Of a stretch of 56,707 nucleotides of DNA, positions 2,458 through 45,381 are shown one piece after another. The notes beneath the pieces were generated by a model. The model was not told where the DNA came from and did not search any database. It worked only from the letters and a program-made list of their open reading frames with translations. A program made the translations under genes and the position numbers. Every line of letters starts with the position of its first letter. Position 1 is the stretch's first letter. Source of the stretch: Thomasclavelia sp. (GTDB lineage: Bacteria; Bacillota_I; Bacilli_A; Erysipelotrichales; Coprobacillaceae); assembly GCA_028749475.1 (NCBI GenBank), contig JAQVWN010000012.1, forward strand, positions 1 to 56,707. Reading direction: 5' to 3'.

Positions 2458-3711
2458 TTAGTTTTTAGTAACTTGAGGAATGGTATTTGTTTTTAAACAG
2501 TATTCTTCAAATGTCCATCCTTTATCAGTTATCTCTTTCGCTATTTTTACACCAACATATCTAAAGTGCCATGGTTCATGTTCAATTCCAGTAATGTCAC
2601 TTTTATCTTCAGGGAATCGACAGATAAAGCCATATTTTGCAGCATTTTTCATAACCCATTTATATTCTGAAGTATCACCAAAGACATTCTTTTGTTTATT
2701 GACAACACTTTCAGAAGTTAAGTCAACACCAAGTCCAGTTTGATGTTCACTAGCTCCAGGAGTAGCGACATACTCAGCAGCATATTGTCCACCATATTTA
2801 GATTCAAAATCTTTATAGGTTTGTTGTTGAGTTTCATATGAACGATATCCACTATTTAAAACTAAGTTATATCCTTCTTCTTTAGCTGCTTTATACATCT
2901 TGACTAAAGCATCAGAAGCTACTTTTCGAAGTTTAGAGTTTTCACAATCCGGTGCAATCGGCATATCTGGTGTTACTAAATCTTTAGGTTCATAACTTTT
3001 TGGTAAATAGAAACCTTTTTTTACTAAAGCAAGTAAATCTGTTGAATTAGTAATTGTATATTTTTCATTAACTGTTTGACTAGCAGATCCTACTAAGAAT
3101 GGATAATTCACAATATTAACTGCATAGTTATAATTCTTTACTTCCTTATATTTTTCAATATAAGCTGACATATTACTAAGTTCATATCCTTTTACTTTAC
3201 GATATGGAGCAGTTTGTTTAGCTGTTAAACTATTATCAATAATTGATTGAAGATCATCTATTGATGAAGTTTTAATCATATCCCAAATCACTTTATCAGA
3301 ATAACCTAAAGCTTTAAGCTTTGGTTGTTGAGATGTAAATATTTTATCAACATTCTTAATTACTTTTTTAACTTTATATTTTGGATTTATTTCATAATAC
3401 TTTTCATATGCATTATAGAATTTAACCTTCTTACTATTATCTATCCATGTTTCAATATGATCTAATTTATCAAATGAATAAATAGTAGAAATATCATCAC
3501 CATCTAATTCTAAAATAGCATTAGCTTCATCTAATGAATATCCATCATACATTAAATGAATTCGATCACGATTAATGAAACCTACTAAACCAAGTACTAA
3601 TACAATACACGCCACTACTATTAATACAGTTCTATCTAATCTTAAACGAGGACGACTAGATTTACTGTTGTAATCACTATAATATCCATAATCCGTTTTT
3701 CTTTTAAACAT
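2458..3711 (-). CDS. D-alanyl-D-alanine carboxypeptidase, VanY/M15B family
   Basis: A membrane-anchored peptidase that trims the terminal D-alanine from peptidoglycan stem peptides. A short basic cytoplasmic tail precedes one membrane segment (about residues 28-46). After a long poorly conserved middle region, the M15B domain occupies roughly residues 255-400, with the zinc/catalytic motifs SEHQTGLGVDL (HxxxxxxD) and EHEPWHFRYVG (ExxH). LNSGYRSYETQQ is the usual substrate-side motif. The 417-residue length reflects the extra stalk region. It is a single-gene unit with its own terminator; the RBS and start at 3711 are clear. Substrate specificity (D,D- versus L,D-) is inferred from the family. 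Confidence 0.9.
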   Translation of the reverse strand: MFKRKTDYGYYSDYNSKSSRPRLRLDRTVLIVVACIVLVLGLVGFINRDRIHLMYDGYSLDEANAILELDGDDISTIYSFDKLDHIETWIDNSKKVKFYNAYEKYYEINPKYKVKKVIKNVDKIFTSQQPKLKALGYSDKVIWDMIKTSSIDDLQSIIDNSLTAKQTAPYRKVKGYELSNMSAYIEKYKEVKNYNYAVNIVNYPFLVGSASQTVNEKYTITNSTDLLALVKKGFYLPKSYEPKDLVTPDMPIAPDCENSKLRKVASDALVKMYKAAKEEGYNLVLNSGYRSYETQQQTYKDFESKYGGQYAAEYVATPGASEHQTGLGVDLTSESVVNKQKNVFGDTSEYKWVMKNAAKYGFICRFPEDKSDITGIEHEPWHFRYVGVKIAKEITDKGWTFEEYCLKTNTIPQVTKN

Positions 3712-15224: not shown

Positions 15225-16134
15225 ATTCTTTAGTTTTAGTATCTTTAGCAATTTCAGCTATTGATGTTATTGTAGCAGCTAATCCTTGTAATTCACTAGG
15301 AATGATAATCTTTGTTGAATCTCCTTTAGCTACATTTTCTAAAGCTTTAAATCCTTCCAAATTAATATATTCAGCACCTGGTTTAGCATTATTAATATAA
15401 TCTATACCTTTAGCTTGCGCTTCATATACCAGTCTCATAGCTTCTGCTTCACCTTCGGCTCTTGCAATCTTGGCTTCTTTATCTGCATTTGCTTCAAGAA
15501 TCATAGATTCTTTAACACCTTCCGCATTTAAAATAGCAGCTGTTTTTTTACCTTCGGCTTGAAGAATAGCTTCTCGACGTTCACGTTCTGCTCGCATTTG
15601 TTTTTCCATTGCTTCTTGGATATCACGAGGTGGAATGATATTTTTTACTTCTACTCGATGAATCTTAATTCCCCATGGGTCTGTAGCTTCATCTAAAATC
15701 GAACGCATTCTAGTATTAATAATATCTCTAGAAGTTAAAGTTTCATCTAATTCGAGGTCTCCAATGATATTACGTAAAGTAGTTGCCGTTAAATTTTCAA
15801 TTGCCTTTAAAGGACCAACTACTCCATAAGTAAATAACTTTGGATCTGTTATTTGGAAATAGACAACAGTATCAATTTGCATAGTTACGTTGTCTTTTGT
15901 AATAACTGGTTGTGGAGGGAAATCTAAAACTTGTTCTTTAAGTGATACCTTGTTTGAAATTCGATCAAAGAATGGAACTAAGACATGTAAACCAACATTT
16001 AAAGTTCTATTGTAAGCTCCTATTCTTTCAATTACGTAAGCTCTTGATTGAGGTACAATTCTAATTGTCTTAGCAACTAGCACCACAACCAAAGCAACTA
16101 AAATAACAATCCATAAATATTTAAATATAAACAT
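15223..16134 (-). CDS. SPFH/band 7 (stomatin-like) membrane protein
   Basis: 303 residues: an N-terminal membrane segment (LWIVILVALVVVLVAKTI) followed by the band 7 domain (IVPQSRAYVIERIGAY, DNVTMQIDTVVYFQITDP, TLRNIIGDLELDETLTSRD). A long coiled coil follows (RAERERREAILQAEGKK). Such proteins scaffold membrane microdomains. It overlaps the NfeD-like gene by one base, the standard stomatin-NfeD pairing. Confidence 0.9.
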   Translation of the reverse strand: MFIFKYLWIVILVALVVVLVAKTIRIVPQSRAYVIERIGAYNRTLNVGLHVLVPFFDRISNKVSLKEQVLDFPPQPVITKDNVTMQIDTVVYFQITDPKLFTYGVVGPLKAIENLTATTLRNIIGDLELDETLTSRDIINTRMRSILDEATDPWGIKIHRVEVKNIIPPRDIQEAMEKQMRAERERREAILQAEGKKTAAILNAEGVKESMILEANADKEAKIARAEGEAEAMRLVYEAQAKGIDYINNAKPGAEYINLEGFKALENVAKGDSTKIIIPSELQGLAATITSIAEIAKDTKTKE

Positions 16135-41503: not shown

Positions 41504-41548
41504 AAGACCTGTTTACATAATTAAAAAGTAATTATGTAATCAGGTCTT
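41504..41548 (-). terminator. Leader terminator upstream of EIIA
   Basis: The stem AAGACCTG..TTACATAATT pairs with AATTATGTAA..CAGGTCTT around a 7-base loop. On the minus strand it is followed by TTTTATTATTTT, 20 bases before the EIIA start. It overlaps the RAT site, so the two structures exclude each other. Confidence 0.85.
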
Positions 41549-41807: not shown

Positions 41808-42221
41808 ATGAACGACCAAACAATAAAGCTTAATACAATGATAAAGAAATACATGAAGATTAATAATCTAACGATGAAGGAATTGGGAGCATTGCTAGGT
41901 AAAAGCGAATCAGCTGTTTCTTATTGGATAAAAGGAACTAGCACCCCTAAAATCGGAGAGATACAAAAAATGGCTGATATGTTTAATTTAACAACTGATC
42001 AAATGATTTATGGAGATACATCCGATTACGAAAACCTAAGTTATTCAGTTGAAGCATATGTTGAAAATTCTAACGATTTTGAAAATGCTCTTAAAAAAAT
42101 AATGAGCGGTTCTAAAGAATTAAGAGACTTGGTGTTTTTAATTAGTGAGTTAAACGAGAAAGAAGTAGCTCAAGTAGTTAACTATATCAATTTTGTTTTA
42201 AGTCAACGAGATAAACAATAA
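41808..42221 (+). CDS. XRE-family repressor of the integrative element
   Basis: 137 residues: an N-terminal helix-turn-helix at about 8-65 (MKELGALLGKSESAVSYWIK) and a short C-terminal helical region. It has the size of phage or element repressors without a peptidase domain. It is the first plus-strand gene of the element, 28 bp ahead of the TPR gene, with an operator-like region upstream. Confidence 0.82.
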   Translation: MNDQTIKLNTMIKKYMKINNLTMKELGALLGKSESAVSYWIKGTSTPKIGEIQKMADMFNLTTDQMIYGDTSDYENLSYSVEAYVENSNDFENALKKIMSGSKELRDLVFLISELNEKEVAQVVNYINFVLSQRDKQ

Positions 42222-42249: not shown

Positions 42250-42966
42250 ATGGGATTTTTTAAACATCTAACAAATCGTAGCGCTACCGTTAAAGTAAAA
42301 CCTAAAATAGAGATTAATAATGATATAGAAATAGCTGATGCATTATTTTCTTCTTTAAATATTGGAGTAGGAATTGAAATTTCGAAAGAAGCACAAAAAA
42401 TACTTGCTACTTGCAATAGCAGACAAGATGTATTAGATCGTATTATAGAATTAGCTAGCAAACACGATACGCCTAGAAGTAGAAAACTATTAGCATTGTC
42501 ATATGCATGGAAAGGAGCCACTTATAGAAAAGAGGCTATAGAGGCTCTAAACAATTATATAAACAATGAATTAGATGAAAGTGAATTTAGAAATATGTTT
42601 ATTCCAGGAACTACTATCTTCGCAAGCATTTCAGAGGAAGCAAAGAATAGACATCTTTCTGATATGTATAATTTTTTAGGCAAATGTTACGAGGGAGAGT
42701 ATGAATTTGATAAAGCACTTGAAACTTTCCAAAAATCACATGAATTGGCACCAGAATATATACACAATGTATTAAATGTAGCAAGAGTATATTCTAAGTT
42801 GAATGACATCGACAAAAGCATAGAAATGCTAGAACAATACAAAAGAACAACATGGTACCTAAATGATGAGTCAAATAGAGAAGTAACAAATAATTATTTA
42901 TCCGAATATAAAGGCAAAAAAGAAAGAGGCTATGTATATAGACCTCGTAAAAGAAAAGAAATATAA
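42250..42966 (+). CDS. TPR-repeat protein of unknown function
   Basis: 238 residues. Tetratricopeptide-like helices run from about residue 125 to 215 (LGKCYEGEYEFDKALETFQK, NVLNVARVYSKLNDIDKSIE). The N-terminal half is helical without a known family, and the end is basic (PRKRKEI). RBS AGGAG. Cotranscribed with the XRE gene, so it may modulate or anchor the repressor; that is inference only. Confidence 0.75.
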   Translation: MGFFKHLTNRSATVKVKPKIEINNDIEIADALFSSLNIGVGIEISKEAQKILATCNSRQDVLDRIIELASKHDTPRSRKLLALSYAWKGATYRKEAIEALNNYINNELDESEFRNMFIPGTTIFASISEEAKNRHLSDMYNFLGKCYEGEYEFDKALETFQKSHELAPEYIHNVLNVARVYSKLNDIDKSIEMLEQYKRTTWYLNDESNREVTNNYLSEYKGKKERGYVYRPRKRKEI

Positions 42967-43062
42967 GGGAGAAGTGAAGTTATAAACGGTCTTAATTAGG
43001 GATAAAAAGGTAAAAAATAGGTAAAAAAGAGGAAAAAAGTTAACATTTTGTAAACGAAAAGG

Positions 43063-43091
43063 TTGAAAAAAAGAGTGAGCGGTGATATAAA
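43063..43091 (+). promoter_or_regulatory. Promoter of the structured RNA
   Basis: TTGAAA (43063-43068), a 17-bp spacer, and TATAAA (43086-43091). Transcription would start near 43098, just before the first hairpin of the RNA. Upstream, 42967-43062 is A-rich with no coding frame. Confidence 0.65.
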
Positions 43092-43097
43092 TATGGT

Positions 43098-43310
43098 GAA
43101 GATATTAGTAAAATCCTCTTGACTCGGATTCGTTTCTATTTCTTCGTTGTGCTTCGAGTGTGCTGGACACTTTCCCCAGAGGACTTGTCATTCTCGCACT
43201 AATCAGGGGATTTAGAAAATATGATTAGTTCCACGTGGCGTTGACAATAAGCCCACGAGTCCAGCGACAAAAGATCTGGTACCATTCTAGCAATAGGATG
43301 GTACTTTTTT
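43098..43310 (+). ncRNA. Structured noncoding RNA, about 213 nt, class not recognised
   Basis: It is bounded by a promoter and an intrinsic terminator, has no coding frame, and is less AT-rich than its surroundings. Visible helices are as follows. AATCC/GGATT is at 43112-43116 and 43126-43130. A 7-bp long-range helix GCTGGAC/GTCCAGC pairs 43162-43168 with 43259-43265. Inside it ACTAATCA/TGATTAGT (43198-43205 and 43222-43229) and CGTGGC/GCCCACG (43234-43239 and 43251-43257) form hairpins. The loop of the ACTAATCA hairpin carries GGGGA (43206-43210), able to pair with UCCCC (43173-43177) as a pseudoknot. It does not match 6S, SRP, RNase P, tmRNA or riboswitch cores I know. Confidence 0.65.
43279..43310 (+). 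terminator. Terminator of the structured RNA
   Basis: The stem GTACCATTCTA/TAGGATGGTAC (one wobble pair) with a GCAA tetraloop, then TTTTTT. It stands 21 bp before the start codon of the nuclease-like gene, so that gene depends on readthrough. Confidence 0.9.
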
Positions 43311-43330
43311 ACTAGTCGGGAAAGGTATAT

Positions 43331-44167
43331 ATGGGGAAAACTTTAGACAAAATAGATTTTATACCTTATCAGGAAGAATACTCTTTAGCTGATTTTGTAA
43401 TAAACTATATAAAAGTATTAGATAATAAACAATTTTCTATAAATGATGGCAAAGAGGCAATTAATATAGTCTTTCAAACAAGACATTACCCTCATATTAT
43501 AGGATTGCATCATTATCAAGATTCGCACTCACAAAATAAAACTATGAAAAATGTATTCAACTTAAAAGGAAATACAGCAATAAAATATATTTTACATAAC
43601 AAAATACAAATGAGCGATTTAGTAAACGCTTATGGTGGCACTATTTTTAATAAAGACATTTATAAATATAGAGTCCTTTCTTCACACCTTATTGAAAGGA
43701 TGATTTTAAATTCAAAGTTATATAAAGTGTGTGGCATAATAAAAAATAATGTAAAAGCAGATTATATACTTGTTTCTAATATTGACCAAATTAAATTTTG
43801 TCTTTGCTTGAAAATAGATAATAAATTAAACAGAGATGGTCATACTTATTGTTGCGTTTCAAATTTAATAAATGATAGAGATGTTAACGGAGCCATCAAA
43901 GATGGCAGACTACAAGAAATAAACATTAACAATATTGTTAAAAAAGACTTCAAGACAAAAAGAATAATTTATGCTAAAACTTGCAATTGTATTTTTGATA
44001 AGCCTAACCCTGGTATCTCCATCAATAAAGTGTCTGAGGCATGTGTTATAGAAGTAATTGAATTAGATGGAAATTGTGTAGCTAAAATAATTGATGAAGA
44101 TTGTTACGAGATAAAGTGCTATTTTTATGATAAAAATACAAAAAGAATAATTAATAAATATCTTTAG
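43331..44167 (+). CDS. PBECR4-like protein (putative phage-type nuclease domain)
   Basis: 278 residues. The segment INIVFQTRHYPHIIGLHHYQ followed by KNVFNLKGNTAIKYILHNK resembles the start of PBECR-type (Barnase-EndoU-ColicinE5/D-RelE fold) domains, which have a HLxGL-like histidine motif. A second strand-rich part follows (IIYAKTCNCIFDKPNPG). The last 60 residues look like an added beta domain. I recognise this only by pattern and am not sure. RBS AAAGG. Its only upstream signal is the RNA terminator, an arrangement like type III toxin-antitoxin loci. Confidence 0.5.
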   Translation: MGKTLDKIDFIPYQEEYSLADFVINYIKVLDNKQFSINDGKEAINIVFQTRHYPHIIGLHHYQDSHSQNKTMKNVFNLKGNTAIKYILHNKIQMSDLVNAYGGTIFNKDIYKYRVLSSHLIERMILNSKLYKVCGIIKNNVKADYILVSNIDQIKFCLCLKIDNKLNRDGHTYCCVSNLINDRDVNGAIKDGRLQEININNIVKKDFKTKRIIYAKTCNCIFDKPNPGISINKVSEACVIEVIELDGNCVAKIIDEDCYEIKCYFYDKNTKRIINKYL

Positions 44168-44322: not shown

Positions 44323-45381
44323 ATGGCAGCATATAAAGATATTAAAAGAAATACATGGTATTGTGATGTAAAGTACAAAAATGCTTTAGGAGAGTGGAAG
44401 CATCACACAAAGAGAGGCTTCTTAACTAAACGTGAAGCATTAAACTATGAAGCGTATTTCTTAACTAACGATAAAAAGAGTACATCTAATATGACTCTTG
44501 ATGAATTATTTGATAGCTTTAATGATTATCAAAAATTAAGAGTTAAACCTTCAACTTATTTAACTGACAAACGAAGATACTTAAAACATGTATCTCCATA
44601 TTTCGGATCTAAGAGACTTTCTACTATTAAACCTATAGATATAAGTAAATGGATAAAAGAACTTTCTAAGAGTTTTAAACCTATTTACTGCAATAGTATT
44701 TTGTCAACGCTTAAAAAACTAGTTAATTATTCTAATAAGGTGCTTGGATATACATATAACCCAGCGACTAATATATCACCATTAAAAAATGAGAAACGAA
44801 TAGCGGAAATTAATATATGGACTCCTGATGAATTTTCTAAGTTTTATAATTCTTTAGATAGCCAAAAGAAAAAAGTCCTATTTAGGACTCTATATTTTAC
44901 TGGTATGAGAAAAGGCGAATTATTAGCTTTAACTTGGAAAGATTTTAAAAATGGTTCATTGATCATTAATAAAGGATATTCATATGCAAATGGTGGAGTA
45001 TCAACTCCAAAAACAAACAATAGTTATAGAACTGTTTTACTGGATAATACAACTAATAATATGTTGGATGATTATCACAATTACTGTATGAAGTTAGATG
45101 GTTATAGTGACTCATTTTATATATTCGGTGAACAATTACCCCTACCACCGGAAACTATTCGTAGATGGCTAAAAAAAGGTATAAAAGAGAGTGGAGTTAA
45201 AGACATAAGATTACACGATTTTAGGCATAGTCATGTTTCTATGTTAATCAATGAGGGTATGCCAGTAATTGCTATAGCTGGGCGCATAGGAGATACTACT
45301 TCAACAGTCCTGGATGTGTATAGTCATTTAATGAATAAATCTAGTCAAGAAGTTGTTGATTTTCTTAATAAACTTGACTAA
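44323..45381 (+). CDS. Tyrosine recombinase (site-specific integrase)
   Basis: 352 residues: an N-terminal arm-binding segment (YKDIKRNTWYCDVKYKN), a SAM-like core-binding domain (about 60-160), and the catalytic domain with Arg in FTGMRKGELLALTW, HxxR in RLHDFRHSHVSML, and the final His/Tyr in STVLDVYSHL. It is a Tn916/phage-type integrase. RBS TTAGGAGG. It ends 75 bp from the 3' end of tRNA-Leu, its presumed target. Confidence 0.92.
   Translation: MAAYKDIKRNTWYCDVKYKNALGEWKHHTKRGFLTKREALNYEAYFLTNDKKSTSNMTLDELFDSFNDYQKLRVKPSTYLTDKRRYLKHVSPYFGSKRLSTIKPIDISKWIKELSKSFKPIYCNSILSTLKKLVNYSNKVLGYTYNPATNISPLKNEKRIAEINIWTPDEFSKFYNSLDSQKKKVLFRTLYFTGMRKGELLALTWKDFKNGSLIINKGYSYANGGVSTPKTNNSYRTVLLDNTTNNMLDDYHNYCMKLDGYSDSFYIFGEQLPLPPETIRRWLKKGIKESGVKDIRLHDFRHSHVSMLINEGMPVIAIAGRIGDTTSTVLDVYSHLMNKSSQEVVDFLNKLD

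Follow-up and report, generated by a model that had tools for sequence, protein, structure and literature searches.

A structured RNA, a terminator and a remote PBECR4-like gene in Thomasclavelia: a candidate type III-like toxin-antitoxin unit

Does a non-coding RNA that ends in a terminator directly in front of a gene belong with that gene, and could it hold the gene's product in check? The question is raised by positions 43063–44167 of the window, by which we mean the whole stretch of Thomasclavelia sp. DNA that was analysed (56,707 nucleotides of contig JAQVWN010000012.1). An earlier note had described here a structured RNA, a terminator and a gene, in this order, and both the order and the coordinates were borne out by the sequence and by a terminator scan, with one correction: the RNA had been taken to begin at 43063, while its start is to be expected about 36 nt later.

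Layout and surroundings of the unit

The features of the unit and of its neighbours, all on the + strand, are as follows.

41808–42221, +: Cro/CI-type HTH regulator, probably of the same element (Pfam HTH_3, 5.3e-11)
42250–42966, +: TPR protein, probably of the same element (Pfam TPR_8, 3.7e-6)
43063–43091, +: promoter-like TTGAAA-N17-TATAAA, read by eye; genome G023 has the same -10 stretch GTGATATAAATAT in its copy
43099–43310, +: non-coding RNA of ~210 nt, proposed antitoxin; start deduced from the promoter, structure conserved in the G023 relative
43161–43266, +: conserved RNA core, every pair kept in a two-sequence pair count
43161–43167/43260–43266, +: closing helix of the core
43173–43177/43206–43210 and 43199–43204/43223–43228, +: pseudoknot of two crossing helices, with a compensatory change in the second
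43235–43238/43253–43256, +: hairpin in the core, with a compensatory change
43278–43310, +: Rho-independent terminator with a 12-bp stem (43278–43305) and a T-run up to 43310; terminator scan
43318–43325, +: ribosome-binding-site-like GGGAAAGG, read from the sequence
43331–44167, +: 278-aa protein, divergent PBECR4-like, proposed endoribonuclease toxin (PBECR4 profile, hhalign, HxxG motif His55–Gly58)
44323–45381, +: tyrosine integrase of the element that carries the unit, adjoining a tRNA array (Pfam Phage_integrase, 3.6e-17)

Since 43063–43091 is promoter-like, the transcript is expected to start near 43099 and not at 43063. A consensus promoter scan did not flag this sequence because the scan demands a T at the last position. 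The terminator scan found one site at 43278–43310, compared with 0.3 expected from shuffles. The ATG of the 278-aa gene lies 20 nt past the T-run, and no promoter-like sequence was found by the promoter scan between the terminator and the gene.

The RNA-gene unit, together with the integrase, the HTH regulator and the TPR gene, adjoins a six-gene tRNA array, and for this reason it looks like the cargo of a small integrative element, for which no convincing repeat was found as attachment sites. At 43002–43041, after the TPR gene and ahead of the RNA promoter, lie AT-rich direct repeats (GGTAAAAAA-type) that recur every 11 nt and may be regulator-binding sites. Beside the PTS genes, at 41504–41548, AAGACCTGTTTACATAATTA and its complement form a long hairpin. 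The control terminator scan also picked up such a hairpin on the - strand, upstream of a gene near oriented position 15226, perhaps the same place, and it may be a bidirectional terminator.

The RNA and the protein

Judged by folding energy alone, the window RNA is only slightly more stable than chance would give (z = -1.77; among 200 shuffles, 13 folded equally well). A relative of the RNA was found in one other genome among 294 of the order, G023 (same family, Erysipelotrichaceae; contig JAJQEL010000078.1), where 100 nt align at 81% identity (E = 3.5e-19) and the covariance-model score is 180.5 bits, the model itself having been built from these two copies. The two RNAs share the -10 stretch, the closing helix, the pseudoknot, the hairpin and the terminator. 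All proposed pairs (32/32) were preserved between them, and three helices show compensatory changes, five in total, of which one falls in a pseudoknot helix and three in the terminator stem; slid versions of the alignment, used as a control, gave pairing in 28–44% of cells. Such a pattern is unlike neutral drift, as far as two sequences, a thin basis, can tell. The kept pairs are thus better evidence for a structured RNA than the folding energy, and the structure proposed in the earlier note stands on these pairs and their compensatory changes, not on an energy that is unexceptional. A repeat search found no tandem repeats in the RNA, as the same note had stated.

Against Rfam families, including Bacilli-1, rli62, drum and abiF, the window RNA did not score above any threshold, and as judged by this lack of a match it is new. 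Viral and genome collections, scanned for the RNA pattern, returned chance matches only, the G023 contig excepted. Covariance-model matches in other genomes (L022, L023, L024 and L033) were rejected or left unproven: in L022 the terminator alone matches, L023 is antisense inside a MATE gene, and L024 is a short partial match only.

In G023, an RBS-like AAGGAG comes after the RNA and its terminator, but no gene does. As this is the only relative, the co-occurrence of this RNA with this gene, which the earlier note had proposed as a check, is seen at one locus only; the layout recurs among the PBECR4 relatives described below. On either side of the orphan copy stands a 230-nt repeat of a shikimate-kinase gene's 3' end, the two being 93% identical (L019, 4685–4914 and 5253–5482). 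The RNA between these ends looks like the remnant of an inserted element, as if the element had brought a replacement end for the gene.

The 278-aa protein matched no family in Pfam, NCBIfam, PHROGs or PADLOC, the gathering cut-off of PF18813 not being reached, and no close relatives were found in viral contigs, phages or plasmids. The route to PBECR4 (PF18813) was a weak protein match in genome G163. With a profile of the PBECR4 proteins of the order, the window protein scored 17.3 bits, whereas the top score among 2000 shuffles was 6.7, and over 1628 open frames the top scorer outside known PBECR4 loci reached 6.9. Alignment to PBECR4 by hhalign gave a probability of 79% (E 1.6e-5), and His55 and Gly58 of the HxxG motif are the sole invariant residues across 18 aligned proteins. 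On the profile score, the hhalign result and these two residues, the window protein is therefore a remote relative of PBECR4, at the profile level only, its identity to PBECR4 proteins being 12–21%. The earlier assignment to a PBECR-type protein thus holds as profile-level homology with the HxxG motif, and not as a Pfam match. The protein had also been called unlike ToxN, and indeed no ToxN, CptN or TenpN homology was detected for it or its relatives.

No relative of solved structure was found by sequence. Two AlphaFold models, one made from the window protein by itself and one from a phage PBECR4 protein with four sequences, had mean pLDDT values of 33.6 and 36.8, too poor for a structure search; the attribution of a BECR fold, the type of Barnase, EndoU and RelE nucleases, to PBECR4 is taken from Pfam's description alone. 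By analogy, the protein is a probable endoribonuclease toxin. A HEPN nuclease was considered and rejected: RVLSSH fits RX4H but is unconserved in the 18-protein alignment. Pfam gave no Abi_2 match for the window protein. A match at L003, of 23% identity and inside a translation-factor gene, is due to chance.

RNAs and terminators upstream of PBECR4 genes

If the RNA and the protein form a unit, then other PBECR4 genes should carry an RNA too. Of the order's 294 genomes, 24 have PF18813. Except in the L076–L080 subgroup, almost every member is preceded by a non-coding stretch that closes with a hairpin and T-run just 5' of the RBS. A terminator 8–50 nt 5' of the start was found for 17 of 23 PBECR4-type genes of the order, the window gene included, and, under one and the same rule, for 8 of 78 control genes, namely genes outside this group that have 100 or more free nucleotides before them (Fisher p = 8e-9, a value that is overstated because related loci are not independent). 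When phage and plasmid members were added, the layout was present in 27 of 35 PBECR4 genes, and several of the remaining ones have weaker hairpins or uncertain starts. The earlier note had counted homologues that regularly lack the RNA as evidence against a functional link; the opposite was found, an RNA and a terminator 14–45 nt before the start codon being usual in the order, in phages, in satellites and on plasmids.

The RNAs themselves are wholly different between PBECR4 subgroups. Tandem-repeat RNAs are found at seven loci (L059, L060, L062, L063, L064, L067 and L072), and the others, the window RNA included, are single complex RNAs. A chromosomal subgroup (L076–L078 and L080) is mostly without an upstream terminator and is possibly a domesticated form; at these loci the PBECR4 gene lies, in at least some cases, directly 3' of an Ffh-like gene. 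At L066, two tRNA genes are directly duplicated over 183 nt (96%; 336–518 and 2866–3048), and the two copies flank a 2.5-kb stretch with an HTH gene, an upstream non-coding RNA, the PBECR4 gene and an acetyltransferase-like open frame; this stretch has no integrase and looks like a minimal mobile cassette. On the Fusobacterium hwasookii mobilizable plasmid NZ_CP013332.1 (L099), two PBECR4 genes stand in tandem (158–868 and 1192–1908), each with an RNA-like stretch and a terminator of its own upstream.

Some of the upstream RNAs belong to three Rfam families to which no function is assigned. Bacilli-1 (RF02931) precedes PBECR4 in Streptococcus phages and a satellite (72–83 bits; threshold 55.6), rli62 (RF01486) does so in Listeria phage A500 (142.5; threshold 83), and drum (RF02958) in genomes G082 and G340 (60.4 and 46.3; threshold 43). 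Both above-threshold drum RNAs found precede PBECR4 genes (2/2); drum matches at L093 and L094 were rejected, lying below threshold and within coding sequence. By DNA similarity, a Bacilli-1-like or rli62-like RNA stands upstream in 9/9 Streptococcus and 9/9 Listeria phage records that bear PBECR4. The Bacilli-1 stretches are 79–100% identical along most of their length, and one of them, used as the sole query, retrieved a record that the protein search had missed, phi30c, in which phi30c_007, directly 3' of the RNA, is a PBECR4 protein (E 8e-36). Having been found through the RNA alone, this gene independently confirms the pairing.

The RNA also occurs without the gene. Satellite Javan250 has the RNA and terminator and lacks PBECR4, and eleven Listeria phage records carry an rli62-like RNA with no PBECR4 gene detected, so that some of these RNAs may serve another role. 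Three of the eleven, the PSA-type phages PSA, LP-101 and LP-P111 (L107–L109, ~1038–1483), were scored against the Rfam threshold: each has an above-threshold rli62, no PBECR4, and then an mcrA RNA (RF03010) before HNH or packaging genes. For these orphans, a decoy antitoxin or a separate function is possible. RNA without gene thus occurs and gene without RNA is rare, an asymmetry expected for an antitoxin and its toxin.

A literature search over 5.39 million papers, with subscription papers and preprints largely outside it, found no mention of PBECR4 and no link of Bacilli-1, rli62 or drum to it; for Bacilli-1 and drum it brought up studies of structure but none that describes what they do. 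What we saw of the published rli62 work deals with expression, horizontal-transfer patterns and interferon induction, and names no partner protein. Neither NCBIfam (June 2026) nor PADLOC gives PBECR4 members a toxin or defence name. The pairing of PBECR4 with these three RNAs is a new observation, an earlier description elsewhere being possible.

Working model, alternatives and known systems

The window locus is, in our view, probably a type III-like toxin-antitoxin unit that a small integrative element carries. Most transcripts begun at the promoter (43063–43091) would end at the terminator (43278–43310), leaving the pseudoknotted RNA in excess, and the occasional one that reads through would serve as mRNA for the 278-aa PBECR4-like protein. 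By binding this probable endoribonuclease, the RNA would block it. If transcription were disturbed, as by phage infection, or the element lost, the RNA would decay first and the freed protein would halt growth, which could serve maintenance of the element, abortive infection or both. Accepting the analogy, we infer that the window RNA acts as the excess antitoxin of a PBECR4-like endoribonuclease. RNA copies without a gene, as in G023, Javan250 and the PSA-type phages, fit the antitoxin role.

Three other relations between RNA and gene have to be weighed. The RNA might be a cis-acting leader only, a riboswitch-like attenuator in which a signal decides between termination and read-through and the RNA never touches the protein. 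RNA, terminator and RBS do adjoin on one strand, Rfam classes rli62 as Cis-reg, and AbiF is reported to be controlled partly through premature termination (PMC12373285); but tandem repeats before several PBECR4 genes are hard to square with an attenuator, the RNA types differ wholly among subgroups, and geneless copies persist, with the terminators retained in G023 and Javan250. We regard a mere leader as unlikely. That RNA and gene are independent neighbours, a small RNA with its own terminator preceding the gene by chance, is less probable again: a terminator does stand shortly upstream of 8 of 78 ordinary genes, and the one relative of the window RNA has no gene, but 27 of 35 relatives share the layout, and the 278-aa gene has no promoter-like sequence of its own after the terminator.

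The slimmest chance is given to an RNA that activates the nuclease or directs it against invader RNA, as a cofactor or guide, and does not restrain it. The RNAs are produced beside the gene, and AbiF RNAs have been regarded as ancestors of Cas13 guides, in work cited in PMC12373285. No variable spacer-like segment was noticed in close relatives, however, the Bacilli-1 stretches sharing 79–100% identity along most of their length, and an orphan RNA would have no nuclease to serve.

With restraint by the RNA as the preferred reading, PBECR4 loci look like a little-recognised group of RNA-restrained toxins. Whether the class as a whole consists of toxins held by upstream RNAs, with Bacilli-1, rli62, drum, the tandem-repeat RNAs and the window RNA as antitoxins that phages, satellites, plasmids and small integrative elements have spread, we judge to be an even call; orphan rli62 of PSA-type Listeria phages could then be decoy antitoxins against the same toxins. 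If this is true, PBECR4, known by a domain name only, becomes a new class of RNA-controlled toxins, and a partner and a function can be proposed for three orphan structured RNAs. The type III logic of RNA antitoxin, terminator and nuclease would reach a further toxin family, and the role of conserved PBECR4 cargo genes in phages and satellites would be explained.

Among known systems, the PBECR4 loci with Bacilli-1, rli62 or drum have the same layout and a homologous protein family, but the window RNA matches none of these RNA families and the window protein is very divergent. As in type III systems, the window RNA lies directly 5' of the gene on the same strand, with a Rho-independent terminator between them. 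ToxIN, CptIN and TenpIN likewise combine an RNA gene, a terminator and an endoribonuclease-like gene on one strand, and their RNA forms a pseudoknot (PMC5086642). Their antitoxin tandem repeats, in contrast, are absent from the window RNA, though present in seven related loci, and the window protein has no detected homology to ToxN, CptN or TenpN. Because repeats and ToxN homology were both looked for and found absent, the locus is not filed as ToxIN-type; our claim, by analogy, is that it would work like such a unit without being a member. In AvcID, also a type III-like pair, the enzyme is a different one (PMC10511110). Of the systems that have been studied, RCd22-AbiF of Clostridioides difficile comes closest; in it, a SigA-type promoter, a structured RNA and a terminator precede a toxin gene without its own promoter, and the RNA neutralises the AbiF toxin in trans and co-purifies with it (PMC12373285). 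The window unit resembles it (Rfam abiF, RF03085) in the SigA-type promoter, the structured RNA of 100–200 nt, the Rho-independent terminator, the promoterless toxin gene and the mobile element; it differs in that the AbiF toxin is an Abi_2 HEPN protein whose RNA has two abiF motifs, whereas the window protein is PBECR4-like and its RNA unrelated.
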